This document shows, piece after piece, positions 1,343 to 64,000 of a DNA stretch of 64,000 nucleotides. The notes beneath the pieces were generated by a model. The model saw nothing but the letters and a program-made list of their open reading frames with translations. It did no database searches and was not told where the DNA came from. The position numbers were made by a program, and so were the translations under genes. Source of the DNA: Halichondria panicea (Eukaryota > Porifera > Demospongiae > Suberitida > Halichondriidae); NCBI RefSeq assembly GCF_963675165.1, contig NC_087388.1, forward strand, positions 1,900,800 through 1,964,799, in the 5' to 3' direction. How positions within the stretch are numbered: the stretch's first letter is position 1; every line of letters starts with the position of its first letter.

Positions 1343-1495
1343 CAGCACCCGCGGTGCTTTCATTACAACTGCTTTGACACAAAAATTAAAACAGGCTGCT
1401 ATGTACTGAAGAAATAAAATCAATGGACACACACACAATACAACTATACAACAATATAGACACACTAGACATGCAGTTAGTGTAATTCAATGAGT

Positions 1496-8565
<7,070 letters not shown>

Positions 8566-9619: not shown

Positions 9620-22441
<12,822 letters not shown>

Positions 22442-22737
22442 AATGTACTCTTCACTGAGCTAGCTAATTGTTGTGTGTCGATTTGAGATCGAGAGTGTAC
22501 AAACCTCGGTACAAACTGTCACAGACAAGTACAATGTTAGGTGGTGGAAACTTAGATGGGCGTGCCCGTCCCCAGCCAGCCATAAATGGCTGGGGACGGG
22601 CACGCCCATCTAGTTGAAACTACGCCCAAGTAGATTTTAACTCCTGAAAGTTCAAAGGTTAAGAAAGGTGCGCTTTAGATGAAATAAATGGGCTTCAGTT
22701 GGAATCACTCGGACCCATGTGCGGCTAGCTGGACAGA
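22442..22737. promoter_or_regulatory. divergent promoter region, copine 2 / MRPS17
   Basis: Only 296 bp separate the start codons of copine copy 2 (-) and MRPS17 (+), so both promoters must lie here or overlap the genes. No TATA box is obvious. The hairpin at 22554-22611 lies near the middle. The segment TTAAGAAAGGTGC...AAATGGGCTTCAGTTGGA at 22659-22702 is shared with the 5' flank of copine copy 1. Confidence 0.5.
22554..22611. repeat. perfect hairpin, 25-bp stem and 8-nt loop
   Basis: Arms 22554-22578 (starting AGATGGGCGTGCCCGTCCCC) and 22587-22611 are exact complements around the loop GCCATAAA. The stem is far more GC-rich than its surroundings. It may be the remnant of a fold-back element, a transcribed hairpin, or a cruciform-forming regulatory element; sequence alone does not decide. 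Confidence 0.9.
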
Positions 22738-42400: not shown

Positions 42401-45400
42401 CACTACACGTTTAACCTCAGAGATCTCTCTCGAATATGGGAGGGCATGCTCCACATTACCAGCGAGCCACTGACAAGTATTGTGGTTCTATTAGCTCTAT
42501 GGAAACACGAATGCACAAGAGTGATTGCTGATCGATTCACGAATGCTGAAGACAAGGCGTGGTTTCAGCAGATCATCCCCCGAGTGATTGAGGAGGAGAT
42601 AGGGGCGGAGACTAGTCGACTGATTCCTGAGGAGTCCTATTTTGTTGACTTCCTCAGGTAACACACTTATTGTTTATATCACAACCTGTGTAGGCTATCT
42701 AAGTAAATTTCCTTCCTCATCTATAAAAAAGAGCAAAACCGAGAGTAGAACCTATTACTTATAGTACTCTATTAGGTGCTAAACCACTAATATATAAGTC
42801 GTCAGAGTTACATGTAGTCGAAATGCATTCTGCCCCCAATTTGTGTATTTGTACTATAACAGCCTTGCGTTATTGTTTGATGTTTTATATATTCATTATC
42901 ATCTCCAATGCAGAGACCCACCAGAGCCAACAGGAGATGAGCCTGAGGACTTTGAGTTTATCGCTCCCAAAATTTATGAACCAGTGAGTTAAATTGCAAT
43001 CAGCTACAAGTACCATGTACATGTATAGAACGTTAAAAGTAGCGATCGTTTTTTTACTGAAGATCGCCATTTGTTCTATAGTTATGTGCATTTACATGTG
43101 TGTATCTTTATTAGATGTATATGTTATATGTAGGATACTGTACAGTCTACTCTGTAGTTGTACAGTGTAATCACAGAACTTGTCTCGGGACTGTGCATGC
43201 TGCACTAAGAATTCCAAACGTATATACATGTACACGTGTATGTAAATGTACATGTACATTCATTATTGTTGCTACTGTTTGATAAACTTACTTTCTTACT
43301 AAAAGCCTGCAATTGTTTTTCTTTCCATGGATGCAGATACCAGCTTACTCGGAGCTTCAAGAACGTCTAAGTAACTTTCTACTTCAGTTCAACGAGACTG
43401 TTCGAGGATCAGGAATGGATCTGGTCTTCTTCAAAGATGCGATGGTCCATCTGATAAAGATTTCTCGCATCATCCGCACAGACAGAGGAGCTGCTCTACT
43501 GGTTGGAGTTGGCGGGTCAGGGAAACAGAGTCTCACTCGATTGGCCTCCTTTATTGCCGGCTACAAAACGTTCCAAATCCAGCTGTCTCGATCTTACAGT
43601 TCCAACAATCTGCTGGAAGATCTGAAGGTCCTCTATCGAATTGCGGGAGAGCAGGGGAAGGGAGTAACGTTCCTCTTTACTGACAACGAGATCAAAGATG
43701 AGGGGTTCCTCGAGTACATAAACAATGTCCTCTCCTCTGGAGAGGTGTCCAACCTTTTAGCTAGAGATGAAATTGACGAGATTAACTCTAACCTCATCCC
43801 CGTCATGAAGAAAGAGTTTCCACGGAGACCACCTACACCTGATAATCTTTACGACTACTTCCTCTCTCGAGCCAGACAGAACCTCCATATTGTGCTCTGC
43901 TTCTCTCCGGTAAGTATATACGACTTTCTCTTATGCTAATATGATTAGCATAAGTATAATAATGTAATTATGTCTTCTGTCCTGCATATAATTATACTCC
44001 TATAGTATTGACATATGACACCATTCTCTGTGTAGATTGGTGAGAAGTTCCGAAGCCGTGCCCTCAAGTTCCCTGGAGTGTTCAGTGGCTGCACTATGGA
44101 CTGGTTCAGTCGATGGCCCAAAGACGCTCTCATTGCTGTGGCCCACCATTTTGTTGGCACTTTCGAAATAACATGTACAGATGAAGTCAAAGATGAAGTA
44201 GTTCAGACAATGGGTATCGTACAGGACTTTGTTGCCGAGTCATGCCTCAACTATTTCGAAAGATTCCGAAGGTCCACCCATGTCACTCCCAAGTCTTACC
44301 TCTCCTTCATCAACGGCTACAAGGGCATCTACCTAGAGCAGAAGAAGCACTTGGACCAACTGGCAGAGAGGATGAATACTGGTCTAGACAAACTGCTAGA
44401 GGCCAGTAAAAGTGTGGCCGAGCTCTCAAAGGAGCTCGAGGTGAAAGAGAAAGATCTAGTGGTCGCAAATATCGAAGCAGAGAAGGTGCTCAAGGAAGTA
44501 ACAGTGAAGGCCGAAGCCGCTGAGAAAGTAAAAGCATCTGTTCAGGTTGTGAAAGACAGGGCCCAAGGTGTAGCCGATTTAATATCTGCAGACAAAGTCG
44601 TGGCAGAGGGTAAACTGGAGGCAGCCAAGCCGGCTCTAGAAGCGGCAGAAGCAGCCCTCAAGACTCTCAAAGCTGCAGACATAGCCACTGTTAGGAAACT
44701 GGGCAAGCCTCCCCATCTGATTATGAGGATCATGGACTGTGTGCTACTGTTGTTCCAGAGGAGACTAAATCTTATGGCCCAGGACCCAGAGAGGCCGGGC
44801 CCAAAGCCGTCCTGGTCCGACTCTCTAAAGCTGATGGCCCAAACTGGTTTCCTTCAATCTCTCCAGAACTTCCCCAAAGACTCCATAAACGATGAGACAG
44901 TAGAGCTGATGGCCCCTTACTTTGACATGGAGGACTACAACCTGGAGACGGCCAAACGAGTGTGTGGCAATGTGGCTGGTCTGTGCTCCTGGACACAAGC
45001 CATGGCCGCATTCTTTTCAGTTAACAAGGAGGTGCTTCCTCTGAAAGCCAACTTAGCGATCCAGGAGGGCAAGTTTCGAATCGCTCAAGAAGAACTAAAT
45101 GTAGCAAACGCCCAGCTGGCAGAGAAAGAGAAGGAGGTGGCTGAAGTGAGAGCTATGTACGAGGCAGCCATGCGTAAGAAACAGGCACTGCAGGATGACG
45201 CAGAGACTTGTAAGAGAAAGATGACAGCGGCGTCTGCTCTAATTGAAGGACTGAGCGGGGAGAAAGTGAGGTGGACTGCGGCATGTAAAGAATTCAAGGC
45301 GCAGATTAGCAGATTGGTGGGTGACGTCCTCCTGGCCTCTGGTTTCCTCTCCTACTGCGGCCCCTTCAACCAAGAGTTCCGAAAGATACTGTTGGACTGT

Positions 45401-48400
45401 TGGAAGAAAGAACTCACCACTCGAAAGATCCCATTCACAGACAATCTAAACCTCACGGACATGCTTGCTGACTCAGCTACTGTGGGAGAATGGAATCTCC
45501 AAGGTCTGCCAAACGACGAACTCTCCGTTCAAAATGGCATCATTGTCACCAAAGCAACTCGCTTCCCCCTCCTCATCGACCCTCAGGGCCAGGCCAAAAA
45601 CTGGATCAAAAACAAAGAGACCGGTGAATCTTTTCGAACCACCACCCTCAACCACAAATACTTTCGTTCTCACCTGGAGGACTGCCTGTCTTTGGGGAAT
45701 CCCCTTCTCATAGAGGATGTGGAGGAGGATCTTGACCCCTGTCTGGATAATGTCCTAGAAAAGAATTTCATCAAAGCTGGTTCCATGTTGAAAGTTAAAG
45801 TCGGTGATAAAGAAGTGGATGTGATGAAAGGATTTATGCTGTACATTACCACAAAACTCCCCAACCCTTCTTACACACCAGAGGTATATTATATATGTAT
45901 AATTTGGCTTAACAATTATGTGTGCCAGTCATGCCAATTTTGCAAGACAGTGCCTTAATTTATTGACTATGCATGTGTGCTTACATGTAGATCAAGGTTC
46001 TGATAGGCCAAACTCCTTAGCAAAACATATAATGTCACGTACATTTCATGGTATAATTATGTACATGTACATGGTAGATCTATGCGAGAACGGCCATTAT
46101 TGACTTCACTGTTACCATGAGAGGCCTTGAGGACCAGCTACTGGGTCGTGTGATTGTGACTGAGAAGGGTGAGCTGGAGTCTGAGAGGGTGAAGCTAATG
46201 GAAGAGGTGACGGCCAATAAGAGACAGATGAAGGAGCTTGAGGATAGCCTGCTTTATCGACTCACCACCACCAAAGGCTCTCTAGTGGACGATGAATCTC
46301 TTATTGACATGCTCCGAACCACTAAGAAAACGGCTGAGGAGGTCACTCACAAGCTACTGGTGGCGGCAGAAACAGAGATCAAGATCAACCTGGCTCGAGA
46401 GGAATACCGTCCAGTGGCTGCTCGCGGCTCTGTCCTCTACTTCCTCATCATGGAGATGTCTATGGTCAACGTCATGTATCAGACATCTTTGCAGCAGTTC
46501 TTGGGCATCTTTGATATCTCCATGCAACGTTCTACTAAGTCACCAGTCACAACCAAGCGTATAGCAAGTGTCATTGAGTATCTAACATTTGCTGCCTTCA
46601 AGTACTGCATCCGTGGGCTTTACGAGCAACACAAGTTCTTGTTCACTCTTCTACTAGCTCTCAAGATTGACATGCAGAAGGCTGCTGTGAAACACAAAGA
46701 GTTCCAGACCTTGATCAAGGGCGGTGCTGCCCTTGACCTCAATGCCTGTCCCCCGAAGACGTCCAAGTGGATCACTGACATGACCTGGCTGAATTTAGTG
46801 GAGCTGGGAAGTCTGCCTCAGTTCCAGGAAATTCTTTCACAGGTACAACGTTATACAAAAAATGTGGCTATTTATAATACTGTTTACTGCATGTAGGTGT
46901 ACTGCATTCGTTTATCAATACTTTTCGGCTTGTACATGTACACTCCACTTTGTTGTATGGAATGTCTTCACACTCACTGTACATGCACCACAAACACACG
47001 CTTGTAGATTGGTCGCAATGATAAAGCTTGGAAGGTTTGGTTTGACTCGGATGCCCCCGAAGAGACCCCCATACCAGACGGCTACAACAATTCCCTTGAT
47101 ACATTCCGAAAATTGCTCATGATTCGATCGTGGTGTCCAGACCGTGTGTTGCCTCAGGCTCTCAAATACATTTCAGAGTCCATGGGGGTCAAATATGCTG
47201 AGGGTGTTATCTTGAACCTGGAGGAAATGTGGGAGGAGTCTAACAAGCGAATTCCGATGGTATGTTTCCTCTCCATGGGGTCCGATCCCACCAACAGTAT
47301 TGAATCGCTCTCCAAGAAACACAATTTCAGTAAGTGTTACATGTATGTACATGGTCGATACAATGAGAGTTGTGTACACTGTATTGTATCTAGAGTAGAC
47401 CTTCACTTAATTTGTCTATTCCTATACAGCTTTTGGCTCTGTGTCTATGGGTCAAGGTCAAGAGGTTCATGCCAGGAGACTTATTGGACAATGTCAACAA
47501 AATGTAATTGTACAGTAGCTAAAGTGCATTTGTGTTGAGTTCGACCTTCATAATACACTTCATACCATTGGATTCCTTGTTAAAAAGCGCTTCTGTCTAT
47601 AGTGCTAGCTGTATAGAGCTGTATAGAGCTGATTAGCTCCAACCATGCACCAGCTATACATTATAGTAAACATTTTCTATGTAGAAATGCCTGGCATACT
47701 TGTCAACCACATAGCATAAATGAAGCCACATAACTTCTGGGGCCGAACTCAACGCAAATAGACTTTAGACTATAGATTGAGTCTGACATATACATAAGGA
47801 GTTACACATTTAATGTAAAGGGCTCATTCCACCGCATGTACGTATGACTTACATGCATACCAATGTGAATTAGGACTGAATTTAAGTGGATCTGGGCAAA
47901 ATCTCCCCACCCCTTAACATTCTCAAAATCTTCCCCTGTGTTCATGCATATTCTCTTAACCAATAAACTGCTTCATCTTTCTATGTACTCAAACCTCCCT
48001 CAGTATAAGCCAATCTGATATCTGATATCAGTCTACTTTTGTGATATCAGTTACTTTTATTTGCTGCAGGGTGGCTGGGCCTTGCTCCAGAACACTCACT
48101 TGGCTCTGGATTTCCTTGACGAGCTCCTGGCAACCGTCATAGACACAGAGAATGTTCATGAGGATTTTAGGCTTTGGCTGACGACAGAAGTCCACGACAA
48201 GTACCCGATCAACCTCCTGCAGGCATCCATCAAGTACACGTTTGAGCCGCCTCAGGGCGTGAAGGCTGGTCTGAAGAGGACATACACCAACACAAGTCAG
48301 GAGACTCTGGAGTATTCGAACCTCCCTCAGTGGAAGCCGATGTACTACACTGTGGCCTTCCTTCACACCACGGTCCAAGAGAGACGCAAGTTCGGGCCAC

Positions 48401-50368
48401 TCGGTTGGAACATCCCCTACGAGTACAACCAGGGAGACTTCAACGCCAGCAGTCAGTACGTCATGAACCTCCTAGACGACCTCGACTTAAAGAAGGTGAG
48501 TCCCCTGACCTAGCCATTATGAGAGTGTGAGGGTTGTGCCTTGTGTGCCTGTAGGGTGTGTCGTGGGGGGCAGTTCAGTACATGATTGGTGAGATCCAGT
48601 ACGGAGGCAGAGTGACTGACGACTATGACAAGAGACTACTCAACACTTACGCCAGGGTAAGCGCTCATCCGTGACTCTGATATCTGACCTTTACCTTTTG
48701 TGTCCATTCAGCTTTGGTTCAACGAAGGAATGTTCAAACCATCCTTCATATTTTATGAGGGTTATAAAATACCTGTGCTCAAAACTGTTAAGGAGTACAT
48801 TGATTACATTGAGAGCCTTCCGCTAGCAGACACCCCTGAGATATTTGGACTCCATCCAAATGCTGATATCACGTATGTGTAAAATATCTCAAAAAATATT
48901 ATCAGCTCTTGTGTAATTTAAACAATACTGTAAATTTATATTTTCCTCACAACTGCATGTACTATAAATAATACATTTTTATCTTGTACGTTTAAACAAA
49001 ATGCATGACTTGCACTCACATTGCTTTTGTGTTCAGGTACCAAAGCAACACTGCAAACCAGAGCTTGGACACGATTCTCTCCATTCAGCCAAAGGACAGC
49101 TCAGGAGGAGGAGGAGAGACAAGAGAGAGTGTGGTGTACAAACAGGCCGGGGAAATGCTCGAGAAGCTACCCTCAGATTATATCCCCCACGAAGTGAGGG
49201 CCAGGCTCAACAAGATGGGTGCCATTGCTCCAATGAACATCTTCCTGAGACAAGAGATCGATCGCATGCAACGTGTCATCTCTGTTGTACGTAGTACCCT
49301 CCAAGATCTGCAGTTGGCCATTGATGGGACCATTATTATGAGCGAGGTATTTGCACTTCAAATTTTCTGTACTGAAGCCATCTTATTAGGTTTCATACAA
49401 AATACTATACCCTGGCTTCTATATTTAGTCTATCAGTTTATTTGAGTGTGTCTCATGTGTTTGCAGAACTTGCGAGATGCTCTAGACTGTATTTACGATG
49501 CCAAGGTGCCCAAAGTCTGGGGAAAGGTATATGCATGCATGTACATGTACATGTATACATGGGTGTGCATGTGTGTACATACAGTATATTAATGTGTTTT
49601 CAGCTTTAGCTAACCTGTACATGTAATTGTTTTTTATTATTGCAAATTGCGAGTTTTAGCATAAATCGCAATCAAAAGATACACAAAGTGAGCATGCGCA
49701 TGCAATTTCCCATGCTTTGCTTGAATTACAATCAGGCTTGTACAATGTCATTCACATTCGATTACCCTTGCATTCGAAGCCCGAAAAGTACGTACAGTCA
49801 TGTACTATAACCGTCTTGTATACAGATATCTTGGGACTCATCAACGATTGGTTTCTGGTACACTGAACTACTGGAGAGAGACAGTCAGTTCCGAGCCTGG
49901 GTGTTTGAGGGGAGACCTATCTCCTTCTGGATGACTGGCTTCTTCAACCCGCAAGGCTTTGTGACAGCCATGAGACAAGAGGTGACCAGGGCTCACAAGG
50001 GCTGGGCTCTGGATAGCGTCGTAGTCCACAACGAAATGACCAGGTTAGGCAAGGAAGACATCACTGCTGCCCCAGAAGAAGGGGTCTACGTGTACGGACT
50101 GTTCCTAGATGGAGCTGGCTGGGACAAGAAGAATAGTCGACTGGTCGATCCCACACCTAAAGTGCTCTTCATTCAAATCCCAGTGGTGCACATATTTGCC
50201 GTCAACCTCAAGGGATTTTCGCTAGACCCAAAACTGTACATCTGCCCAGTGTACAAGAAACCTCGTCGCACTGACCTCACGTACATCACCTACCTTAGCC
50301 TGAGGAGCAACCAACATCCCGATCACTGGATCATGAGAGGAGTAGCACTCCTCTGTGACACTAAGTAA
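27430..50368 (+). CDS. DNAH5: outer-arm axonemal dynein heavy chain, DNAH5/DNAH8 class, copy 1 (34 exons, 4,603 aa)
   Basis: The force-producing ATPase heavy chain of the outer dynein arm (the chain equivalent to Chlamydomonas gamma), which slides axonemal doublets in motile cilia and flagella. Joining the 34 exons gives 13,812 nt in one frame, 4,603 aa, full length for the class. Landmarks: N-terminal tail about residues 1-1400 with the DNAH5/8-specific [15 protein letters not shown] and [14 protein letters not shown]-like block; linker about 1400-1850; AAA1 P-loop GPAGTGKT near 1951 followed by [12 protein letters not shown]2 GPTGTGKT near 2233; AAA3 GEQGTAKT near 2569; AAA4 GVGGSGKQ near 2933; coiled-coil stalk and microtubule-binding tip in exon 25; AAA5-AAA6 and the C-terminal domain ending in the 34th exon with [14 protein letters not shown]. 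The AAA3 loop with Ala before Lys is, as far as I recall, normal for the family. DNAH5 versus DNAH8 is not resolvable by eye; this is probably a pre-split orthologue. Confidence 0.95.
28770..29325 (+). mobile_element. MITE family A, copy 2
   Basis: Lies in dynein copy 1 intron 3. The left end ATGCCTCGGTGCGCATGCG at 28770 is intact. The right end reads CTCCACCGAGCACCCGCGGT, missing six bases (GCATCA) seen in the copy at 836-1342. Internal sequence is collinear with that copy. Confidence 0.75.
31001..31225. mobile_element. near-complete palindrome, fold-back element
   Basis: The whole element folds on itself. The outer arms share CCAAGGGCGTATAAAAGAAG and AGAGGGCATGCAACTCC; inner arms share GCAGAGTTCAAACGTGGGCG; the centre (TGCTAAAAATAAACAT / TTTTTAGCA) is also self-complementary. 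It lies in dynein copy 1 intron 7. A half-related remnant (CCAAGGGCATATA) is visible near 2249. Confidence 0.85.
32301..32671. mobile_element. 371-bp TIR element
   Basis: Inverted ends TACCGTAT(AT)CTTCTAATTTATCGGACA on both sides, with internal repeats of the motif CGGACA(C/A)TTC. It lies in dynein copy 1 intron 10. The TACCGTAT tip is shared with other elements in the window (families C and D). Confidence 0.8.
35093..35310. mobile_element. MITE family C, intact copy
   Basis: Ends ACCGTATTACTAGAATGTTT and AATATTCTAGTAATACGGT, 218 bp. Internal arms TTGCGAGCATCAAAC and AAGGTTTTTCACTCGCAA continue the imperfect fold-back. It lies in dynein copy 1 intron 13. Confidence 0.85.
35876..36290. mobile_element. 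Tigger/pogo-like MITE
   Basis: 415 bp with inverted ends AGTAGAACCTCGCTAATCCG and CGGATTAGCGAGGTTCTACT next to TA dinucleotides. AGAACCTCG(C/A)TAATCCG-type ends and TA target sites resemble Tigger/pogo elements of the Tc1-mariner superfamily from established knowledge; no transposase frame survives. It lies in dynein copy 1 intron 14. Confidence 0.75.
36748..36955. mobile_element. fold-back MITE family D, best-preserved copy
   Basis: Ends ACCGTATAGCGGGTAATTTT and AAAATTACCCGCTATACGGT are near-perfect complements. The interior is built of repeated CCACGAA(A/T)AT words. It lies in dynein copy 1 intron 15. Confidence 0.85.
38121..38306. mobile_element. degraded TIR element related to family D
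   Basis: ACGGTATAGCCCGAATTTTT on the left and AAAATTTCGCGCTAATACGG on the right form imperfect inverted ends. It lies in dynein copy 1 intron 17. Confidence 0.45.
39161..42657 (+). other. DNAH5: AAA1-AAA3 region of dynein copy 1 (exons 20-22)
   Basis: Exon 20 carries the hydrolytic AAA1 site: Walker A GPAGTGKT and the CFDEFNRIE Walker B region. Exon 22 is the largest exon (2,309 nt) and holds AAA2 (GPTGTGKT, and [19 protein letters not shown]) and AAA3 (GEQGTAKT, and [16 protein letters not shown] with [15 protein letters not shown]). No catalytic residue looks replaced, so copy 1 should be an active motor. Confidence 0.85.
44036..45883 (+). other. DNAH5: stalk and microtubule-binding domain exon, dynein copy 1
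   Basis: One 1,848-nt exon contains the antiparallel coiled-coil stalk: CC1 with [17 protein letters not shown] and [20 protein letters not shown], and CC2 with [20 protein letters not shown]. The intervening tip carries the conserved [23 protein letters not shown]5 begins downstream ([20 protein letters not shown]). In copy 2 the same coding length is split by one extra intron. Confidence 0.85.
47518..47769. mobile_element. MITE family B, copy 2
   Basis: Ends CTAAAGTGCATTTGTGTTGA and CAACGCAAATAGACTTTAG in inverted orientation, about 252 bp. It starts 15 bp after the donor of dynein copy 1 exon 28, inside intron 28. Confidence 0.65.
49630..49812. repeat. dispersed repeat in dynein copy 1 intron 33
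   Basis: Shares CAATCAGGCTTGTACA and a following TGCATT(C/T)GAA(A/G)CCCG block with 4405-4475 and 12886-12935. TTGCGAGTTTTCGC-like words also occur at about 11655. Borders are unclear. Confidence 0.45.
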
Positions 50369-50371
50369 ACC

Positions 50372-51012
50372 TATATCACTTTTTGTGTATACATGTACAA
50401 TGTCATGTACGTATGCCCATCATTTTAAAACTGCTCACCCTAATTTCAATTATTGAGCTTAAAAACAATACATTTTTAACTATTATAATTATACATGTAA
50501 CGTATTTATAAAATAATGCATAATTAATTTTGGTTGTACTCACCCCCATAATAATGATTTTTATGCCTGCCATTGAACTATAATAATACAGTTTTGAATT
50601 GCATGCACGTATTACAGTACGCGTGGAACCTCGATCGATCTGTTAACAACCACCTCCGAATAATTAAAGGCCAGATAACGGCCATGGAGGCACCCAGGCC
50701 CCAAATGAACAGTTTGTGTACAAAACAACCTCAACAATTAAAGGCAACTTATATGTACTTGTATAAAGGCCAAAACATTGTTCCCCAAATTATAAAAGTG
50801 TCCGTTATAGAGCTATAGGGGTTCCATGCACTGTATAATTATAATGCTTCATATAATTATACATGCAAGTACATAATTATTGTGATTGACATTGTTATGT
50901 AAAAGACATGTTTAATTGCATGCATGGAAAGCAAAAATGTAAAAATATGTATAATTGTATATAAAGCACAGATTGGAAATATAAAACTATACGTGTTATA
51001 ATTATGAAATAC
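50372..51012. other. spacer after dynein copy 1, with a TIR element at 50613-50835
   Basis: AT-rich 3' flank between convergent genes. The 223-bp element at 50613-50835 has inverted ends TACAGTACGCGTGGAACC and GGTTCCATGCACTGTA with internal GGCC-containing arms. The short open frame across it is element sequence. No other gene is visible. Confidence 0.6.
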
Positions 51013-54000
51013 TCAAACTGCTAAAGCTTTAGTCCAGTCCTCTTTGTTCAACCAGGCCATTTCCTTGAGCAATGGTAGGTGTGTACAGTGTAGTAGTGAG
51101 CTGAGTGCCACACCCCCTTCCTGTGATACCCCAGCAGTGCCACACACCACCAGTAGACCGTGCTCTAGCTCATTGATGAGGGGGAGAGAGGAGATCGTGT
51201 GAGAGGCCTCTTTGGACAGTGACTGAGAGTTGGATGTGAGCCAAACGATGAGGTGGCGGTAATCTGTGAGCAGCTGTCTCCCTGCCGACGGTCTGTGGTG
51301 TGTGTACATTGGGGGGACCATAAGTGCCTGTATATACACATACATGCACGTCTGATGCAGGAATGTGTGTGAGGGGGACACCGTACAGCTAGGTAATAAT
51401 CCATTAAGTATTTGGAATAAGAACGAGTCATCATGTACAAATAAATTACCTATAATGTTATTTTTCGCTGTATACACATACATTATCATAACACATATTA
51501 AATTTTATGTAAGACACGATTGCAAACCTTAATTGTACCGTCAGAGATAACACCAGTTACACCATGCACTACTACTCTGTACACTTATTCAACACAATTA
51601 GAGTAGCATTTTTGCTTATATTTACGAAAGGATTGTAAACCTCTTTCACTGCTGAAACACACTATTATCTCACCTGTATACCCTCTCAGTGTCCAGAATG
51701 ACCTTCCTCAGTTCCAGGAGGACCACACTCAGACACAGTGCAGCGAGACCACTCTGTGCTCTAGGGGGCAGGGACAGACACGCCTCCAGCACAGGGGAGA
51801 GGAGCTGCTCAATGATCACCTCAGTGTAGCTGCTAGCATTGGCTGGTTGCTGTACTCCACCTACAGTGTATGAGAGTAAAGTGGTAAATTTGATTCTGAT
51901 ACATGTAACAGCACATTGAAGTGCTACACTGTATATTGATGCATAATTTTGTTCTACACCCTAACGTAGAAGCTGTTATTTGTAGTGCCAAGAGTACATG
52001 TATATAATAGAGAGAATGTAGGCATACTGTGTACCAGATGTATGCGGAGAGTAACGTGACTTCCTGTATTTGTCACAAGCTTGACACAAAAAGTGGATTA
52101 CATCACCCACACTTGGATTGGTCAGTGTGCAAATTCCAAGCCCATGACAGGATACAGAAAGTCACGTTACTCTCCGCATACATGTACATCTGATGCGTAG
52201 TATGCCTACGTTCGATACTCTCTCTCTATTATAATTATACTCTTGTTAGCACTTACTCGATTATAAGCGTATCTTGATATAATTATTATAAGCGTATGCG
52301 CAACAGAAGGTTTTTGTACTCAAATTGCTTTTCCAATAACAAAAACCTTGTACAGTGCTACACTTTAACTTACTTTTCCTGGCTGTATTTCTCCACGCCT
52401 TCTGGGAGGGGAACACAGTCTGCAGTACTTGGGCACATTGCTGACCCCAGACCCTGGTCATGTACACACATAGCTCATCACTGGATTCCTGCAATAGAGA
52501 AAACAAATTGTGTAGGTGATACTATTTCTGTGATATTCATTGAGTGACTGGAATATAATTTGAGTGTTATGCAATTAGAATATCATTATAGTGGTAGTAC
52601 GTTAAAGATTCAAAGCGTTCAATAAAAGATTGCTACTTTATTGGAACACATTCAAAGTAAGACCACAATGAACATACCATTACACAAACGTTTATATAAT
52701 GAATTACCTGCAGTGTCTTGAAGCTGCTATAGAGTAGGGAGTATCTCTGTCTGCTGGTACTCTCAATGAGGTGTGGTCCCATAGCCGGGGGAAACACAAA
52801 CAAAGGAGCAGCCACTCTCAACTGATACTCCCCTAAAGCAGCTACCTTTCTTACGGCTGGGGAATCTACAAACAAACCCTGTCCCAGTCCGCGCAGATTC
52901 CAATTAACCAAACAACTTTTCATCCCTTGAGAGAGAAACGTCGAAAACTTCCGTAGGGTCACTTCCATTGCCGCGACTATGGGTTGTGATAATCGAACGT
53001 TGTCCAGATGCTGAGCTACAGAGCCGGGGGTATTAGAGGCTTCAATTCGAGGAAAGGTGTCAGGGGATTGCATAAAGTCGGTGAGAGGGATAAACACAGA
53101 GTGGGTGACTAGAGATGTGGATTTTGTTGTTTTCTGCTCGTTTGTATGAGACTTGAATCCTCTTCTCAGATCCACAGGCATTGCCACAAGTAGAGACTGG
53201 AAACCTACAAACAAGCGGATTATCATTTTTTGTCATCGACATTGCATACTGTGTACTTATGAGTATATGCAACCAACCATACATAGTACAGAAATTTACC
53301 TGAGTCCCACTGCAAGAGGCAGACTTGCTGTCGTAGTGAAGCGGTTACATACCAAAGACACTTTACCACAGGGGAGTATGGTTGCAGGTCTAACAAAGAA
53401 AAAACACAGTGTGTCTTCAGAAATCCTTCTAATACATGTATAAGGTACATCACTGTACATTGTACAGTCATTAATGCACAACTCGGAGTATACAACACAT
53501 GCACACCCTTGTGAAGAGTAACACTTCAACTACTACATGTATGCAATAATTACGTATACCTGCAAGGCCAAAACAGTAAGATGCAAATAGTACATTATAA
53601 TACACACTCTGAGTAGAGTTGAAAAATCTTCTCACCTTCCTCTTTCTGTAGTCCCTCCAAAAGCGGTACCAACTCAGTCATGGCCCAATCATCAGGCAGT
53701 ACTGGCTGCAAGGCCTCCACCATACGACGGGCCACCTCACCCCACACCCTCCCAGTCAGCTCCAGGCCAGCTAGCCTCAATCCCTCAGACTGGGCTCCTG
53801 CAGTGGGAGAGTGTTCAAAGTTCAAATGAAGCTGGCCATGGCCATAGCCTTGCACGCACACAGCCTTGCACGCACACAACTATACATTTTTCAGTTCAAA
53901 GATAACATGCACCATCTTACCCTGTGTAATATACACCGTAAATAGCAAGATATATAAATCTAATCAAACCATAATTAACGGTCAGTAGGGCAAAGGTTTA

Positions 54001-54790
54001 ACCAATCAACTAAATTCATTTATTGGATTATTATCTGGTCAAGAAATGTTTTTTAATCTGAAAAGTTTATTTTACGTACCTTATGAGCAACCATAACACA
54101 CTGACCTGGAATCAGACAGTCCATCCATGTGAGCTTCTCCTGTCCATGGGCCAGAGCGAACATTTCTTCTGACACATACATCATTTTTGGTGTGTGCTTG
54201 GTATTAGGAGAATGCAATAAGGATGTGTAGGTAGCAAATATCCCTAGCAACGCTCGAATGAGTACAGACTCGAATTTAGCAAGATGTAATAGAGTAGACT
54301 TGGACGGATGATGGAGGATTGCCTGCGATATAAGCTTACAGCGTGATTGAATAATCCTTTTTGCAAAATCACAAAAGTCCGGCTTGAAAGTTGGTCGTCT
54401 GCTAGATTTGCTGTTGTGCTGATCACAATGGGAGCAAAGCAGACTGGTACAATGCTCCATCAGTTGACAAATCTTTTTACACTCACTGAAAGAGTTTTCG
54501 ACATTGTTCTCAAGCTCATTAGATATACAGAGAAGCTCAAACTGAGTCAAAAGAACATTTTTCACTATTTCCAGGCAATAAATTCGTTCTCCATCTTTCA
54601 AAAACTCCTTTGGCTCTCCTTCAGCTCCAAATTGTTGTAGTGCCAGCAGCCTGTCAGCAATATTGACATCCTTAATACAGTCATCATAGCTCAAAGGTAG
54701 GCCTTCATCACAGCAAGCTTGTAGGTGTCGTAGTTGCTGTGTTAAGCCAGTGTTTAGAAAAGAAAGGAGTGGCTTGGAAGACATGTCCAC
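51013..54790 (-). CDS. uncharacterised 677-aa protein between the dynein genes (7 exons)
   Basis: Exons: 54790-54080, 53789-53636, 53389-53300, 53204-52708, 52488-52374, 51860-51674, 51292-51013. Borders are GT-AG, phases agree and the 2,034-nt sum keeps one frame, so the gene model is good even though the family is not settled. The product is Leu-rich, predicted largely helical and cytosolic, with no signal peptide and no obvious membrane segment. Cys/His residues (CTSLLCSHCDQH near residue 130) lie in the first exon without a full zinc-finger pattern. Later segments include LRLAGLELTGRVWGEVARRM, YSPVVKCLWYVTASLRQQVC, QRYSLLYSSFKTLQESSDEL and QLLTDYRHLIVWLTSNSQSL. The overall pattern made me think of CCDC142-type proteins, but that is a weak recollection and no name is assigned. 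It is transcribed on the same strand as dynein copy 2, with a 451-bp gap. Confidence 0.75.
52004..52233. mobile_element. fold-back element in the 677-aa gene
   Basis: Arms ATAATAGAGAGAATGTAGGC and GCCTACGTTCGATACTCTCT, continuing inward through ATGCGGAGAGTAACGTGACT / AGTCACGTTACTCTCCGCAT. About 230 bp in intron 5 (between exons 5 and 6). No frame. Confidence 0.8.
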
Positions 54791-55241
54791 TCAACTTGTC
54801 TCTTCAAAGCTTGGCTACTATGGCAACGATACTCGATTTCAGGCCGCACAATAATTATTTAAGCCGCGGTTTTTTTGGAAGCAATTGCACTTACTATGCA
54901 AAAGGAACGGCGGCTAATTCATGAGACTACTATGCAACTAGCCTGGGGGCCAGACCTAATAGCTCGGGGGCAAAATCAAGAGAGCTAGGATTAGCTCTTT
55001 CTCTCTTCCCCCCGGCCCCTCCCGCCTCTTGAGAAAAGGTCTGGCCCCCAGACTAGATCTACTATGCAACATAGTATAAAAGTAAAATAGTATAAAAGTA
55101 AAATAAATAATGAAGTGTACAAATAATTAGTTACGTCCATTATAGTACGTACGGTATACTATGCACAAGGCAAACGTCATTATGTCATAAAAATAACAAC
55201 TGATAAATTATAGCTAAGCTCTACTGGCTCATAATGTATAA
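54791..55241. other. spacer with GC-rich hairpin at 54939-55055
   Basis: The 5' flank of the 677-aa gene and the 3' flank of dynein copy 2. The hairpin arms TAG(C/T)CTGGGGGCCAGACCT close a 117-bp fold-back with further pairing inside (AGAGAGCTA / TAGCTCT, GGGGGC / GCCCC-like). No gene seen. Confidence 0.7.
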
Positions 55242-58200
55242 TTACTTAGTGTCACAGAGGAGTGCTACTCCTCTCATGATCCAGTGATCGGGATGTTGAT
55301 TGCTCCTCAGGCTAAGGTAGGTGATGTACGTGAGGTCAGTGCGACGAGGTTTCTTGTACACTGGACATATGTACAGTTTCGGGTCTAGCGAAAATCCCTT
55401 GAGGTTGACGGCAAATATGTGCACCACTGGGATTTGAATGAAGAGCACTTTAGGTGTGGGATCGACCAGTCGACTATTTTTCTTGTCCCAGCCAGCTCCA
55501 TCCAGGAACAACCCGTACACGTAGACCCCTTCTTCTGGGGCAGCAGTGATGTCTTCCTTGCCTAACTTAGTCATTTCGTTGTGGACTATGACGCTGTCCA
55601 GAGCCCAGCCCTTGTGAGCCCTGGTCACCTCTTGTCTCATGGCTGTCACAAAGCCTTGCGGGTTGAAGAAGCCAGTCATCCAGAAGGAGACAGGTCTCCC
55701 CTCAAACACCCAGGTTCGGAACTGACTGTCTCTCTCCAGTAGTTCAGTGTACCAGAAACCAATCGTTGATGAGTCCCAAGATATCTGTGGAAATAATTGG
55801 TTGAAATGTCAATTTTAGTATATTCCAATCATAGACTAGCACTTACTCTAGACCAAGTGCCTGGTACTTTTGCATCATAGATACAATCAAGAGCATCTTG
55901 TAGGTTCTGTGATGAAGTCAACATTTTTTATTTTACATCTGTAGCACATGCATGGTAATCAATGAGAACATTATGTTCCCCAACACAAACTGGTAAAAGT
56001 AAGTTACCTCGCTCATAATAATGGTTCCATCAATAGCCAACTGTAGATCTTGGAGTGTACTACGTACAGCAGCAACGACACGTTGCATGCGATCAATCTC
56101 TTGTCTCAGGAAGATATTCATTGGAGCAATGGCACCCATCTTGTTGAGCCTGGCCCTTACTTCGTGGGGGATATAATCTGAGGGTAGCTTCTCGAGCATC
56201 TCCCCGGCCTGTTTGTACACCACACTCTCTCTTGTCTCTCCCTCACCCCCGGCACTGTCTTTGGGCTGGATGGAGAGGATCGTGTCCATGGAACTCTTTA
56301 CTGTGTTGTTCTGGTACCTACATATACAAGTATAACAAAGGAGGTCATGGTATACGGTCAGGACAGCATCTACTGAAATATCATGAGGTTGTTTCATGCA
56401 GTAGAGATATTTCAAATCACTTGTAAAGGTTTAGTTCTAGATTATTTGTTATACACAGCCAAACTCTGCAGTAATGCAGCAAACGTAAGCTCTACCATTC
56501 CAAAAAGATATCGCTTCTCGGATAATTACATACGTGATGTCAGCATTTGGATGGAGTCCGAATATCTCAGGAGTATCTGATAGCGGAAGGTTCTCAATGT
56601 AATCAATGTACTCTTTAACAGTCTTGAACAAAGGGATTCCATAACCCTTGTAGAATATGAAGGATGGCTTGAACATTCCCTCGTTGAACCAAAGCTGGAT
56701 GGACACAAAGGGTAAAGGTCAGATATCAGAGTCACGAATGAGCACTTACCCTGGCGTAAGTGTTGAGTAATCTCTTGTCATAGTCGTCAGTCACTCTGCC
56801 TCCGTACTGGATCTCACCAATCATGTACTGGACTGCCCCCCACGACACACCCTGAAGGCACACAAGGCACATCCCTCACACCCTGACAATGGCCAGGGTA
56901 GGGAACTCACCTTCTTTAAGTCGAGGTCGTCTAGGAGGTTCATGACGTACTGGCTGCTGGCGTTGAAGTCTCCCTGGTTGTACTCGTAGGGGATGTTCCA
57001 GCCGAGTGGCCCGAACTTGCGTCTCTCCTGGACCGTGGTGTGGAGGAAGGCCACAGTGTAGTACATTGGCTTCCACTGAGGGAGGTTCGAGTACTCCAGA
57101 GTCTCCTGGCTTGTGTTGGTGTATGTCCTCTTCAGACCAGCCTTCACGCCCTGAGGCGGCTCAAACGTGTACTTGATAGATGCCTGCAGGAGGTTGATCG
57201 GGTATTTCGGGTGTACTTCAGATGTCAGCCATAGCCTGAAGTCCTCGTGGACATTTTCTGTCGCTATGACAGTTGCCAGGAGCTCGTCTAGGAAGTCCAA
57301 AGCCAAGTGAGTGTTTTGGAGCAAGGCCCAGCCACCCTGCAGCAAACAAAAGTATGATTGTCAGATATCAGACAACACATAATTATTCATATATAGACAG
57401 CTGAAGCAGTGTACTAGTTAAATAGGAGCCACATGTGCCTGTATAACAATTATAACATGTGCAAAATTCTGTACCAGACTCAATCTGGCTACAACTGCAC
57501 TGCTATTAGCCAACTCACATTTAGTTGACATTGTCCAATGAGCCTCCTGGCGTGAACCTCTTGACCTTGACCCATAGACACAGAGCCAAAAGCTGTACAC
57601 AAGGTAACTTAATCATAACACATCCTCTGAATATAGTTGCAATAAAGCATTATAAATACATGCATGCAGACAAATACTCCCAATAAGGAGCACACAGCAA
57701 CTGTTAAGTTAACTCCATGCACTATAAACTACACAGTAATGTCACTGTACATGCACAGTGACACGCACGTACTCAGGTTATGTTTCCTTGACATCATGTC
57801 AATACCGTTGGTGGGATCAGACCCCATAGAAAGAAAACAGACCATTGGCACTCGCTTGGTCGATTCTTTCCACATATCCTCCAGATTCAAGATCACACCC
57901 TCAGCAAATCTAACCCCCATAGATTCTGAGATGTAGCGTCTTGCTTGAGGCAACACACGGTCAGGACACCATGACCTACACAAAAAGAGAAACAAGCACT
58001 ATAGAACACAGTGCAAATTGGACATAATGATAGGGTTTTTACTACTTAATCTGCAAAATCAAAAATCAAGTTAGGTGTAGAAAACGTCCTTGTCTGAGCT
58101 GGTATCTTATTAATGTACAGCTGTAACTGAGCCAACAATATAGAGTACAGTATATATGCTGTACCTAATGAGCAAAAGCTTAGAGAATGTGGAGACTGCA

Positions 58201-61200
58201 TTGTAACCATCCGGCATGGGACATTCGTCAGGAAGGTCGTTGTCATACCATCCCTTCCACCCCTTGTCGTTGCGACCAACCTACAGAGATACAACACATG
58301 TTTAATGTACCCATTCACTGATGGACGGAATGTGTTTTGTATTACAGATTCTTAAATGTACTAGCATATACAAGACTTAAACTACGTAATTATATCAAAG
58401 AAATAACCTATAACCAACCAGTTAAAATTTTCGACTATGTATACACAAAATAAAGCATACCTGATGCAGAATCTCAGTGAACTGAGGCAGTTTAGCAAGC
58501 TCCACAAGATTGAGCCACACCATATTAGTGATCCACTTGGACGTCTTCGGGGGACAAGCATTGAGGTCGAGGGCAGCACCACCCTTGATCAAGGTCTGGA
58601 ACTCTCTGTGTTTCACAGCAGCCTTCTGCATGTCAATCTTGAGAGCTAGTAGAAGAGTGAACAAGAACTTGTGCTCTTCGTAGAGACCTCTGACACAATA
58701 GCTGAACGCTGAAAAAGTCAAGTAATCGATAACATTGGCTATACGCTTGGCTGTGACTGGTGACTTAGTAGAACGTTGCATGGAGATATCGAAGATGCCC
58801 AAGAACTGCTGCAAAGCTGTCTGATACATGACATTGACCATAGACATCTCCATGATGAGGAAGTAGAGGACAGAGCCGCGAGCAGCCACTGGACGGTATT
58901 CCTCTCGAGCCAGGTTGATCTTGATCTCAGTTTCTGCCGCCACCATTAGCTTATGAGTGACCTCTTCGGCCGTTTTCTTAGTGGTTCGGAGCATGTCAAT
59001 AAGAGACTCATCGTCCACTAGAGAGCCTTTGGTGGTGGTGAGACGATAAAGCAGGCTATCCTCAAGCTCCTTCATCTGTCTCTTGTTGGCCGTCACCTCT
59101 TCCATTAACTTCACCCTCTCAGACTCCAGCTCACCCTTCTCAGCCACAATTACACGACCCAGCAGCTGGTCCTCAAGGCCTCGCACTGTCACGGTGAAAT
59201 CCACAATCGAGGTCCTTGCAAACACCTGTAAGTGTGAAGATCATGACTATCAATATTATAAGTACTTGTATGCTTGTATATTTCTACAGAACATGCTGGG
59301 TTAGAATAGTAGCTAGTGAAAAACACCAATTCAGAAAAAGCATTAGGTCTATAGCATAAAATTGCATGGTGCTATACAACGTACTGATGAAGTATTGAAT
59401 TAATAACTTGCCTCAGGAGTATACTTTGGATTTGGTAGTTTGGTGGTGATGTACACGGCAAAACCTTTCATTACATCTACTTCCTTGTCTCCAACTTTTA
59501 CCTGTACACATAATTATAGTATAACTGTTGATATAAAAGTACCCACCCAAATTTGACCCCAATTCAGGGTAGGCATATAATTATTGTCACAAACAAGGCT
59601 CCGACATAATTTTCTGAAAATGTGACCATTCAATCCAATCCAATATATAATTATACATGCACTGACCTTGAAGGTGGAACCAGCTTTGATGAAGTTCTTC
59701 TCCAGGACATTATCCAGACAGGGGTCAAGATCCTCCTCCACATCCTCTATGATAAGGGGATTCCCCAAAGACAGGCAGTCCTCCAAGTGTACACGGAAGT
59801 ACTTGTGGTTGAGGGTGGTGGTTTGAAGAGAACGGGTACTTTCTTTGTTCTTGATCCAATTCTTGGCCTGGCCTTGAGGGTCGATGAGGAGGGGGAAGCG
59901 AGTTGCTTTGGTGACAATGATGCCATTTTGAACGGAGAGTTCATCATTTGGCAGACCTTGGAGATTCCATTCTCCCACAGTAGTTGAGTCAGCAAGCATG
60001 TCTGTGAGATTTAGTTTCTCCGTGAATGGGATCTTTCGAGTGGTGAGTTCTTTCTTCCAACAGTCCAACAGCAACTTTCGGAACTCTTGGTTGAAGGGGC
60101 CACAGTATGAGAGGAAACCAGAGGCCAGGAGGACGTCACCCACCAATCTGCTAATCTGCGCCTTGAATTCTTTGCATGCCGCAGTCCACCTCACTTTCTC
60201 TCCACTCAGTCCTTCAATTAGAGCAGATGCCGCTGTCATCTTTCTCTTACAAGTCTCTGCATCGTCCTGCAGTGCCTGTTTCTTACGCATGGCTGCCTCA
60301 TACATGGCTCTCACTTCTGCCACCTCTTTCTCTTTCTCTGCCAGCTGGGCGTTTGCTATGTTTAGTTCTCCTTGAGCAATTTGAAATTTGCCTTCCTGGA
60401 TCACCAAGTTGGCTTTCAGGGGGAGCACCTCCTTGTTCACTGAAAAGAATGCGGCCATGGCTTGTGTCCAAGAGCACAGACCAGCCACATTGCCACACAC
60501 TCGTTTGGCCGTCTCCAGGTTGTAGTCCTCCATGTCAAAGTAAGGGGCCATCAGCTCTACCGTTTCATCGTTGATGGAGTCTTTGGGGAAGTTCTGGAGA
60601 GATTGGAGGAAACCGGTTTGGGCCATCAGCTTTAGAGAATCGGACCAGGACGGCTTTGGGCCCGGCCTCTCTGGGTCCTGGGCCATAAGGTCTAGTCTCC
60701 TCTGGAATAACAGTAGCACACAATCCATGATCCTCATGATCAGGTGGGGAGGTTTGCCAAGTTTCCTAACAGTGGATATGTCTGCAGCTTTGAGAGTCTT
60801 GAGGGCTGCTTCTGCCGCTTCTAGAGCCGGCTTAGCTGCCTCCAGTTTACCTTCTGCCACGACTTTGTCTGCAGATATTAAATCGGCTACACCTTGGGCC
60901 CTGTCTTTCACAATCTGAACAGATGCTTTTACTTTCTCAGCTGCTTCGGCCTTCACTGTTACTTCCTTGAGCACCTTCTCTGCTTCGATATTTGCGACCA
61001 CTAGATCTTTCTCTTTTACCTCAAGCTCCTTTGAGAGCTCGGCCACACTCTTACTGGCCTCCAGCAGTTTGTCTAGACCAGTATTCATCCTCTCCGCCAG
61101 TTGGTCCAAGTGTTTCTTCTGCTCTAGGTAGATTCCCTTGTAGCCATTGATGAAGGAGAGATAAGACTTTGGAGTGACGTAGGTGGACCTTCGGAATCTT

Positions 61201-64000
61201 TCAAAATAGTTGAGGCATGACTCGGCAACAAAGTCCTGTACGATACCCATTGTCTGAACAACTTCATTTTTGACTTCATCAGTACATGTGATTTCGAAAG
61301 TGCCAACAAAATGGTGGGCCACGGCAATGAGAGCGTCTTTGGGCCATCGACTGAACCAGTCCATAGTGCAGCCACTGAACACTCCAGGGAACTTGAGGGC
61401 ACGGCTTCGGAACTTCTCACCAATCTACACAGAGAATGGTGTCATGTCAATACACAAACACACAAGAGACAAAAGCAAGCCATCAAATACAGACGTATAC
61501 AACAAATCATAAAAGAAAGTCTTATAATTATAGTGCTGCAATCTCAAGAGAAACTATAAGAGCAGTACATAAATACCGATTAAACACGGCTAGCTGTTAA
61601 ATGTAATTATTTTATCCACAATGGTTGTACAGGAGGAGTAAACCCTATAAGGGTACTTCCTCAAGAGTATGAACAAAAAAATGAACATAGTAGACAAACA
61701 GAATAAGAATAAACGCTATGTAATAGTTGAACATAATCATTATTATGTGTACAAATGCAGGGGGAAATTAATTGCCAAGCGCCTTAGCGCGAGGCAACTA
61801 ATACTGCATCGTATCTCAGAAACCTTTGTATGTATGTATGTATGTATGTCACGCTCAGGAATGTCACGCTTCAGGAATGTGGAATTGGATGGCTACATTC
61901 GGTTAATCTTTATTACCTCCAAACTGATCTACTATTGGCATAATTATGCAGAGAAGAAAAGCTACGTAGCTATACATATATATACGTAGCTGGAGCTAGC
62001 TTAGGCCGGCTCTACTGTAGCTAGCTATATAAGAGTCTCACATGAACAAAGCCAACAACAACACTACACTCTACTCTTGGAATCAGAGTTCTTGAGAGAC
62101 AGATTCTAGCCGGCCAAGAATGTATAATTATGTCACATATTATTATTCATAATGAAAGCACCGTGGGTGCTGATGCCTCGGTGGAGGTGTCAAAGCTACA
62201 TAACATAAAGCTGCACATGTAGCATAAAGCTGTTTTATACACACATTGATTATACAATGATGAAATCAATTTTGCTGCATGCAGAATCCAGAATGAACTC
62301 AAAGAGTGGGTTATGATCGACCATGATTGTTGTTAAAACGATTGATGCCAAAAGTCCAAGTCTAAAATTGATGGCTGCATTACACATGTACATGCATCAG
62401 CAGAACCTTGCAGCTCTCTTCTCACACCTATACCAATAGCTATAGCGTTCTAGTGCAGAGCTAGCTACTAAGTAGAGTAGCAACACTCGGTGGACATGTA
62501 CAAGTTTTGCTACGTACTCTTCTGAAAAGGCTGCAATGGCATTCCAAGTAAGCAAAACTAGGCATAACTCGAGAACAAAGCATTATTTTGCAAATCCAAG
62601 AATTAAAATCCAAGAAAAACTACTAACACTTCATTGATCCTAGAGAGACAATCACACACATGCACACACACATACACACTTGCGCATGCGCACTAAGGCA
62701 TAACTATATCCAAATCATACTCTCTATAGCATGCAAGTCCAGTCTACTCTCCTTCTTTCTCCTAAAATTGTACTTAAATACAACTCTGCGCGAGGCTAAT
62801 CATGCGTATGCGTATACCTAGTTAAAAAGTGAGCTAGTAGTTTGATTTTGAATAAAATTTTACAACACTTACCGGAGAGAAGCAGAGAACAATATGGAGG
62901 TTTTGTCTGGCTCGAGACAGGAAGTAGTCGTAAAGGTTTTCAGGTGTTGGTGGTCTTCGTGGAAACTCTTTCTTCATGACGGGGATGAGGTAAGCGTTGA
63001 TCTCGTCAATTTCATCTTTAGCTAAAAGGTTGGACACCTCCCCAGAGGAGAGGACATTGTTGATGTACTCGAGGAACCCTTCATCTTTGATCTCGTTGTC
63101 AGTAAAGAGGAACGTTACTCCCTTCCCCTGCTCTCCCGCAATTCGATAGAGGACCTTGAGATCTTCCAGTAGATTGTTGGAACTGTAAGAGCGAGACAGC
63201 TGGATCTGGAACGTCTTGTAGCCGGCAATAAAGGAAGCCAATCGAGTGAGACTCTGTTTCCCTGACCCGCCCACACCAACCAGCAGGGCAGCTCCTCTGT
63301 CCGTGCGGATGATGCGAGAAATCTTTATCAGATGGACCATGGCATCTTTGAAGAAGACCAATTCCATGGCTGAACCTCTAACAGTTTCGTTGTATTGGGT
63401 GAGGAAGCTATGCAGACGATCTTGTAATTCCTGGTACTCTGGAATCTGCAGAAACAATAAAAAACATGCAGTCAACAAATTATAGAACAATATTTAAGGA
63501 AAACCATACAAAGGCTTATGGCAAAACTATAAACTTATTTACCGCTTCATATATTTTTGGTGCCTCGTACTCAAAGTCCTCAGGCTCATCTCCAGTGGGC
63601 TCAGGAGGATCTCTACGCAAGAAATAATTACGTGTAATTGATTATAGTAATCATACAGGGAGGAAAGAACACGTATTCGAAACTGTTCGCAGTTAGCAAA
63701 AAGTAACAGAATAGTCACCTGAGAAAGTCCACAAAGTATGGCTCATCAGCAAGTATTGCTTTCACCTCGGGTCCCATGTGTTCCTCAATTGCCCTGTACG
63801 TAGCACCATTAAACCAATCCTTGTCCTTCTCCGCCGTGAAGCGATCAGCTATCACACGTGTACACTCACTCTTCCAAAGAGCTAAAGCTCCTTTCTTATC
63901 TGTGATAGTATCCTTGTCAACGTGAAGCATACCCTCCCAAATTCGAGACAGATCTCGGAGATTGAACACATAATGAAATTTGGCGGGTGTCGGAAGCATT
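55242..64000 (-). CDS. DNAH5: axonemal dynein heavy chain, DNAH5/DNAH8 class, copy 2 (partial, continues past the right edge)
   Basis: Paralogue of copy 1 in inverted, convergent orientation. Exons 3' to 5': 55242-55784, 55847-55906, 56008-56317, 56534-56694, 56750-56851, 56911-57336, 57519-57592, 57773-57975, 58165-58280, 58461-59225, 59412-59501, 59667-61424, 62873-63445, 63543-63612, 63719-64000 (open). Content runs from the end of AAA3 ([17 protein letters not shown]) through AAA4 (GVGGSGKQ), the stalk and microtubule-binding tip ([14 protein letters not shown]), AAA5, AAA6 and the C-terminal domain. Exon sizes equal copy 1, except that two copy-1 exons are each split by an extra intron and one is a codon shorter. 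The frame is open throughout, so this looks functional in the visible part. One donor (exon 59412-59501) is GC rather than GT. Identity to copy 1 is strikingly uneven. Confidence 0.93.
62173..62701 (-). mobile_element. MITE family A, copy 3
   Basis: Reverse orientation of the elements at 836 and 28770: ATGCCTCGGTG at 62173 is its right-hand TIR, and TTGCGCATGCGCACTAAGGC near 62681-62700 its degraded left end. It lies in the 1.45-kb intron of dynein copy 2 between 61424 and 62873. Confidence 0.75.

Follow-up and report, generated by a model that had tools for sequence, protein, structure and literature searches.

Patchwork divergence between two inverted dynein heavy-chain genes of the sponge Halichondria panicea: a very probable case of gene conversion stopped by diverged introns

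Background

Gene conversion between linked old duplicates, accompanied by raised guanine-plus-cytosine (GC) content, is established (PMC2720389, PMC3924837), and in mammals the pairs BMP8A/B, DDX19A/B and TUBG1/2 show concerted evolution (PMC2720389). Here we describe a comparable pair in Halichondria panicea, namely two DNAH5-type axonemal dynein heavy-chain genes that are convergent and inverted (copy A on the plus strand, copy B on the minus strand) with about 4.9 kb between them. They were studied in a window of 64,000 nucleotides (NC_087388.1, contig C12, positions 1900800-1964799) of a 131.5-Mb genome in 39 contigs. Silent divergence between the copies alternates between low tracts and saturated islands, which we attribute with considerable confidence to ectopic (interlocus) gene conversion that acted between these linked inverted genes and was halted by diverged introns.

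Like the dynein pair, the three mammalian pairs are old and linked (one of them inverted), and homogenised and divergent regions alternate within the gene (PMC2720389). GC is raised in their concerted regions, significantly at third positions in two of the three. These pairs were chosen because two exons and the intron separating them are more than 97% identical, whereas in the dynein pair homogenisation leaves out most introns and many exon ends, and the islands are saturated. Adjacent inverted copies also convert among Caenorhabditis paralogs, where fast-diverging introns may impede conversion and compact introns (modal length 47 bp) may be included; that account is a review of many pairs, whereas here the rule can be measured within one very long gene pair (PMC3966223). 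The human red and green opsin genes are likewise linked duplicates with a conversion-derived mosaic of divergence, but with reversed polarity: their introns are homogenised and exon 5 diverges, while in the dynein pair exon interiors are homogenised and introns diverge (PMC3924837). Finally, the major ampullate silk paralogs of Argiope are clustered and undergo intergenic conversion, and extreme intron divergence with rapid turnover has been proposed as a brake on their exchange; unlike the dynein pair, these genes are internally repetitive and are homogenised mainly among repeats within a gene (PMC9779670). In the open-access literature we found no prior report of conversion between dynein heavy chains. 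The process itself is known; what sets this pair apart is how large the contrast is, that exon interiors are the parts homogenised, that the copies are convergent and inverted, and that the tracts look about equally old.

Results

A and B were placed in a three-gene codon alignment with an unlinked paralog on contig C4, which served as outgroup for the A-B comparisons. This paralog was the one further close relative found in a genome search with one exon (68-70% amino-acid identity); beyond A, B and C4 that search gave no match above 46% identity over more than 50 residues. Divergence was measured as the proportion of different fourfold sites (p4). Between A and B, 23.4% of 1,553 comparable sites differ, and a two-state model (0.114 and 0.663) is strongly favoured over one state (difference in Bayesian information criterion, dBIC, +226). 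For A-C4 (1,162 sites, 66.0% different) and B-C4 (1,140 sites, 67.5% different) one state is favoured (dBIC -26 and -28). A three-state model for A-B gained 5 log units and was rejected on the same criterion (-34).

Segmentation of the A-B comparison yields 11 low and 11 high segments (Table 1), several of the latter holding just 4-14 sites and being individually weak. At fourfold sites comparable in all three genes, p4 in the tracts (842 sites) is 0.128 for A-B, 0.646 for A-C4 and 0.648 for B-C4, against 0.689, 0.671 and 0.749 in the islands (219 sites). Since A-C4 and B-C4 are high in the tracts, silent sites there were free to change and did change; only the pair A-B is alike. When fourfold sites were shuffled, the observed window variance was reached in none of 10,000 permutations and the longest identical run in 42 of 10,000. 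Coding windows of 87 bp with at most three differences make up 27.7% of those observed, against a mean of 0.009% over 200 shuffles. Within tracts the window variance is slightly higher than in shuffled data, where 592 of 10,000 permutations reach the observed value. In codon strips drawn for the 21 borders, the change at many of these is completed over a few codons.

Island amino-acid identity is 0.576 for A-B, 0.512 for A-C4 and 0.496 for B-C4; where unconverted, A and B thus resemble one another little more than either resembles C4, so the duplication is old. Coding nucleotide identity is 51% in the tail islands and 94% in tracts. In the tail tracts A and B are 98.7% identical in amino acids, with about 10% of fourfold sites different, and 48% identical to C4. 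By the NG86 method the tracts have a nonsynonymous divergence (dN) of 0.025 and a synonymous divergence (dS) of 0.211, an indication that the proteins are under purifying selection; this dS exceeds the fourfold difference of 0.11, and the fourfold counts are the figure we rely on.

A patchwork of this kind had been proposed, with gene conversion as its cause, in a first-pass annotation of the window, and those of its figures that were checked are borne out. Of the 87 bases in the stalk exon segment 44399-44485, three differ from the reverse complement of 60975-61061; all three are third codon positions and leave the translation unchanged. Between the 55-bp intron 48657-48711 and 56695-56749 (reverse complement), 4 of 55 differ, and the neighbouring short intron 48496-48554 aligns with 56852-56910 (10 of 59 differ). 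The two diverged 15-residue peptides it quoted, one from each copy, are each present in our protein models, and the diverged exon ends and starts it listed correspond to islands at 42194-43408, 45794-46128, 46816-47289 and 49296-49511, although its exon numbers were not reproduced. Its argument that purifying selection alone would not suffice agrees with the A-C4 and B-C4 divergence of about 0.65 at shared silent sites of the tracts. The sliding analysis of synonymous divergence and the conversion test it suggested were run in equivalent form (not with GENECONV itself) and gave sharp steps, from about 0.11 to about 0.66 for A-B, the two comparisons with C4 remaining single-state; uniform synonymous divergence along the pair, which it had named as speaking against conversion, was not seen. 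Two details are made clearer: the second copy is on the minus strand, and the pair is larger than had been stated. The claim that all long introns are diverged holds for most, 24 of 31 paired comparisons being not homogenised. In 26 of the comparisons at least one copy has 80 bp or more; three of these 26 are partially or weakly similar, and from the exon side a match of 24-31 bp enters two long introns.

Introns were classed as homogenised or not by their sequence alone, after which exonic p4 was binned by distance (the first 61 alignment columns being omitted). The 31 comparisons include two B introns twice, on account of probable artefact exons in A, and exclude two A-only and seven B-only introns. 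For A-B, p4 falls from 0.57 at up to 5 codons from a non-homogenised intron to 0.12-0.14 at more than 100 codons; over the same distances A-C4 is flat (0.61-0.70) and B-C4 nearly so (0.63-0.74). The length of blocks between non-homogenised introns is inversely related to A-B p4 (rho -0.59, P 0.0008, 29 blocks with at least four sites) and unrelated to A-C4 p4 (rho 0.08, P 0.67). Where both copies of an intron are shorter than 80 bp, four of five comparisons show homogenisation, against three of 26 (the partial or weak cases) for longer introns (P 0.005). As neighbouring sites are non-independent, the P-values of these intron and block tests are to be taken as guides. Islands are found mainly at exon ends and in short exons adjoining non-alignable introns, whereas long exons are homogenised.

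At one border the intron is present in only one copy. A tract ends at 45784, and the position of a 165-bp B-only intron, missing from the A and C4 models there, corresponds to 45794 in A. It is possible that this intron was gained in B; a genome search for it elsewhere, made with a mobile intron in mind, found only itself. Another B intron (58164-57976, minus strand) is also present in C4 and missing from A at about 47124, apparently through precise loss in A.

The four homogenised short introns are those at 29912, 30099, 48496 and 48657. In addition, the A-B match reaches 24-31 bp into longer introns at the donor 40045 and the acceptor 44036 and then stops. Over all 58 junction sides, the match of the intron flank correlates with that of the exon end (rho 0.43, P 0.0008). 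Where the exon end is well matched (22 sides) the flank identity is 0.51, and where it is diverged (20 sides) 0.31 (P 0.001), a contrast that omits the 16 intermediate sides of the 58.

Fourfold GC in the tracts is 0.545 for A and 0.541 for B, against 0.493 and 0.447 in the islands, while C4 is flat (0.454 and 0.445). Fisher tests of this contrast give P 0.039 for A, 0.00015 for B and 0.74 for C4; at three-way sites the values are 0.36, 5e-5 and 0.26. The pattern fits GC-biased conversion or A as the donor. Base composition and codon usage both lean towards A as donor (codon usage in 73% of 500 bootstraps), not significantly.

The 11 tracts show no detectable difference in p4 (chi-square 10.5, 10 df, P 0.40), and independent exponential tract ages produced so even a spread in 0.05% of simulations. 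Steady recurrent conversion was simulated in 250 runs for each of six mean tract lengths (30-3000 bp); these and the single-age simulations used 9 trimmed tracts with 1,113 sites. Under recurrent conversion the quantile of the observed lag-1 correlation is 0.012-0.064 and that of the among-tract chi-square is 0.000-0.18. Window variance alone is indecisive (0.052-0.204 quantile under recurrent conversion, upper tail 0.087 under a single age). Single-age simulations fit, with upper tails of 0.42, 0.087 and 0.54 on the three statistics. Moderate evidence therefore suggests that the tracts are of about one age, reflecting one homogenisation epoch or one cessation, not steady turnover.

Table 1. 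Features of the dynein locus in window positions. Tracts and islands are in copy A coordinates; fractions are differing/total A-B fourfold sites from the segmentation.
Feature	Position	Strand	Fraction	Remarks
Copy A, DNAH5-type axonemal dynein heavy chain gene	28011-50365	+		34-exon model, 4395 codons; spliced alignment, PDB matches, Pfam dynein domains
Copy B, inverted paralog, in-window part	55245-64000	-		38-exon model, 4391 codons (whole gene); spliced alignment
Spacer between convergent copies	50369-55241			Without A-B match
Diverged island	28011-29536	+	22/29	45% amino-acid identity
Low tract, tail	29543-30423	+	11/112	Spans two short homogenised introns
Diverged island	30433-30858	+	10/11	Few sites
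Low tract, tail	31677-32114	+	5/49	Intron 31875-32027 inside not alignable
Largest diverged island, tail	32157-35641	+	64/93	40% amino-acid identity
Low tract	35660-36388	+	0/14	Intron 35791-36372 inside not alignable
Diverged island	36395-36586	+	9/14	Few sites
Low tract	36587-37969	+	13/95	Linker region (DHC_N2)
Diverged island	37997-39265	+	35/47	
Low tract	39293-42187	+	43/331	AAA_6, AAA_5, AAA_7 region (Pfam); B partner within 67033-63811
Diverged island	42194-43408	+	30/55	Exon end, short exon, next exon start
Low tract	43409-45784	+	42/337	AAA_8 and stalk (MT); end adjoins B-only intron position
Diverged island	45794-46128	+	17/20	
Low tract	46138-46560	+	5/68	
Diverged island within an exon	46564-46620	+	6/6	Few sites
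Low tract	46645-46815	+	5/26	Few sites
Diverged island	46816-47289	+	16/32	
Low segment	47290-48147	+	3/15	Few sites, weak
Diverged segment	48154-48183	+	3/4	Weak
Low tract	48190-49292	+	12/105	Holds homogenised 59-bp and 55-bp introns; intron 48873-49036 not alignable
Diverged island	49296-49511	+	8/11	Few sites
Low tract, last exon	49829-50362	+	4/79	B partner 55788-55242
B-only 165-bp intron	59502-59666	-		Not in A and C4 models at that position; at tract/island border
Dispersed repeat in B's 1,448-bp intron	62150-62618	-		A's intron there 126 bp

The copy B model runs from 77125 to 55245 (minus strand), about 13 kb past the window end into the flank. Both models start past the first exon or exons, which lie upstream, and as the aligner penalises stops, their freedom from stop codons is no independent proof of intactness. 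Two tiny exons in the copy A model (32757-32767 and 35329-35330) are probably artefacts. Earlier, less complete gene models, superseded by the final ones, gave the same pattern. In searches against PDB the stalk exon has 8j07 DNAH5 as its first match (E 5.3e-282) and a 9fqr chain as its second, while for the last exon DNAH5 of 8j07 comes second (E 4.6e-79) behind a 9fqr chain of 4730 residues (E 5.2e-90). That chain carries the depositors' name CFAP57; judged by its length and the match, it is presumably a heavy chain. The exons of copy A carry the Pfam domains DHC_N1, DHC_N2, AAA_6, AAA_7, AAA_8, AAA_9, MT and Dynein_heavy, those of copy B being assigned by alignment only. Judged from sequence, A and B are DNAH5-type outer-arm dynein heavy chains with predicted tail, linker, AAA and stalk domains, a designation in which the PDB matches do not separate DNAH5 from DNAH8. 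An A-B match was also sought within the spacer and none was found; just downstream of copy B the spacer holds a 245-codon open frame (54053-54790, minus strand) without a Pfam match at E <= 0.001.

Several repeats and further duplications were observed. The dispersed repeat in B's long intron is about 470 bp and has copies in the window at 830-1363, 28764-29331 and 62150-62618, so that one lies in an intron of each dynein copy; genome-wide, 40 matches were scored of 3,406 candidates. Further repeats, short, dispersed and 88-94% alike, pair 17875-18094 with 35091-35310 and 35875-36290 with 80874-81271 in the flank, and include a copy in a copy A intron. Elsewhere in the window, 1367-8728 and 9505-22703 form a direct, patchy duplication with blocks of 71% to 97% identity, in which four open reading frames gave no Pfam match. 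On contig C11 (about 3.83-4.26 Mb) stalk domains of other dynein heavy chains are matched in six groups, and in some the matched stretch contains stops. Comparison of four of these places shows pairs whose blocks range from about 88% to as much as 98.7% identity; this patchwork, too, may come from conversion.

Discussion

The low tracts have sharp edges at many borders, their likeness is specific to the A-B pair when judged against the outgroup, and non-coding DNA is homogenised within them, all of which are features of conversion. An old inverted duplication would have given rise to A and B, and ectopic conversion would later have copied genomic DNA between them in tracts. These would have begun and spread where the copies still matched, that is in long exons and very short introns, and halted at introns that indels and insertions had scrambled; exon ends, and likewise short exons standing alone, would thus have escaped and drifted apart where they adjoin diverged introns. 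What we infer from the pattern is the mechanism of recombination, that heteroduplex rejection at heterologies was the rule that stopped it, and that homogenisation of the tracts took place in one epoch or ended about once.

The template was likely genomic DNA rather than spliced cDNA, because short introns are homogenised and matches end inside longer introns. If a transcript of one copy had instead overwritten the exons of the other, sparing most introns and perhaps in a single event, one would understand why homogenisation is largely confined to exons, why tract ages look alike and why well-matched exon ends adjoin unmatched introns at 35790 and 49826. The four homogenised short introns nonetheless require an at least partly unspliced template, and the 24-31 bp intron matches are impossible from a spliced template and unexpected from a retained intron, which makes templating by cDNA or RNA quite improbable. 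Purifying selection or a low mutation rate in certain blocks, acting on silent sites and short introns too and so holding A and B close, would suit tracts rich in conserved motor sequence and the amino-acid identity of A to C4 (0.70 in tracts against 0.51 in islands). But A and B stay 0.65-0.75 from C4 inside and outside the tracts, so that these are explained by neither selection nor the local mutation rate; the fourfold divergence of A-C4 and B-C4 lacks a two-state structure, and in amino acids the tail tracts are nearly identical between A and B and less than half identical to C4. We regard this explanation as scarcely credible.

Haplotype duplication or mis-assembly, which could yield near-identical tracts, meets serious difficulties: the tracts still differ at about 11% of fourfold sites with saturated islands between them, the copies are inverted and some 4.9 kb apart, and a haplotype copy would match across introns, where 24 of 31 are not homogenised. 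It is extremely unlikely. Slightly less so, though still very improbable, is a recent whole-gene duplication (silent divergence 0.11) whose islands and introns were later imported from a diverged third paralog. The uniform tract age would be expected under such a history. On the other hand, the islands of both A and B are far from C4 (p4 0.67-0.75), the one-exon search gave no further match that might be the donor (a lost donor is conceivable), and more than 20 introns as well as exon ends would need importing.

Some observations weigh against conversion stopped by introns as set out here. Among five junctions displayed, the match extends clearly into the intron at two, partly at 40349 and not at 39959 and 43909. 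Introns inside low segments are not alignable at 35791-36372, 36614-37097, 39701-39958 and 48873-49036, and a few borders are blurred (near 37997 and at 48154-48190). The GC rise is weak for A, and the lean to A as donor is not significant. The data come from one species and can only suggest concerted evolution. Finally, the tail islands, at their present identity, are too diverged to start conversion today; the homology of the tail tracts must therefore have been kept from early on or restored otherwise.

Conclusions

A pair of about 4,400 codons and more than 30 exons, together with an unlinked outgroup, offers a readable map of where conversion stops, namely beside diverged introns, in short exons and once at an intron of one copy only. 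The rule that introns end conversion becomes measurable. Identity-based dating and trees of such paralogs blend two histories, and a whole-gene estimate would date the duplication too recently. The locus also provides a natural pair of motors in which the motor domain is nearly the same and the tails are very different. It is conceivable, though somewhat doubtful, that the tracts, spread across 20 kb and set apart in the tail by islands of 51% identity, were homogenised or released about once, either through one patchy repair event spanning both inverted copies or because exon-wise conversion, continuous from the duplication onwards, was abruptly shut off (for example after a rearrangement). 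If so, the near-uniform motor halves and divergent tails would preserve the end of conversion in frozen form, in two dyneins that share a motor and differ in their tails.

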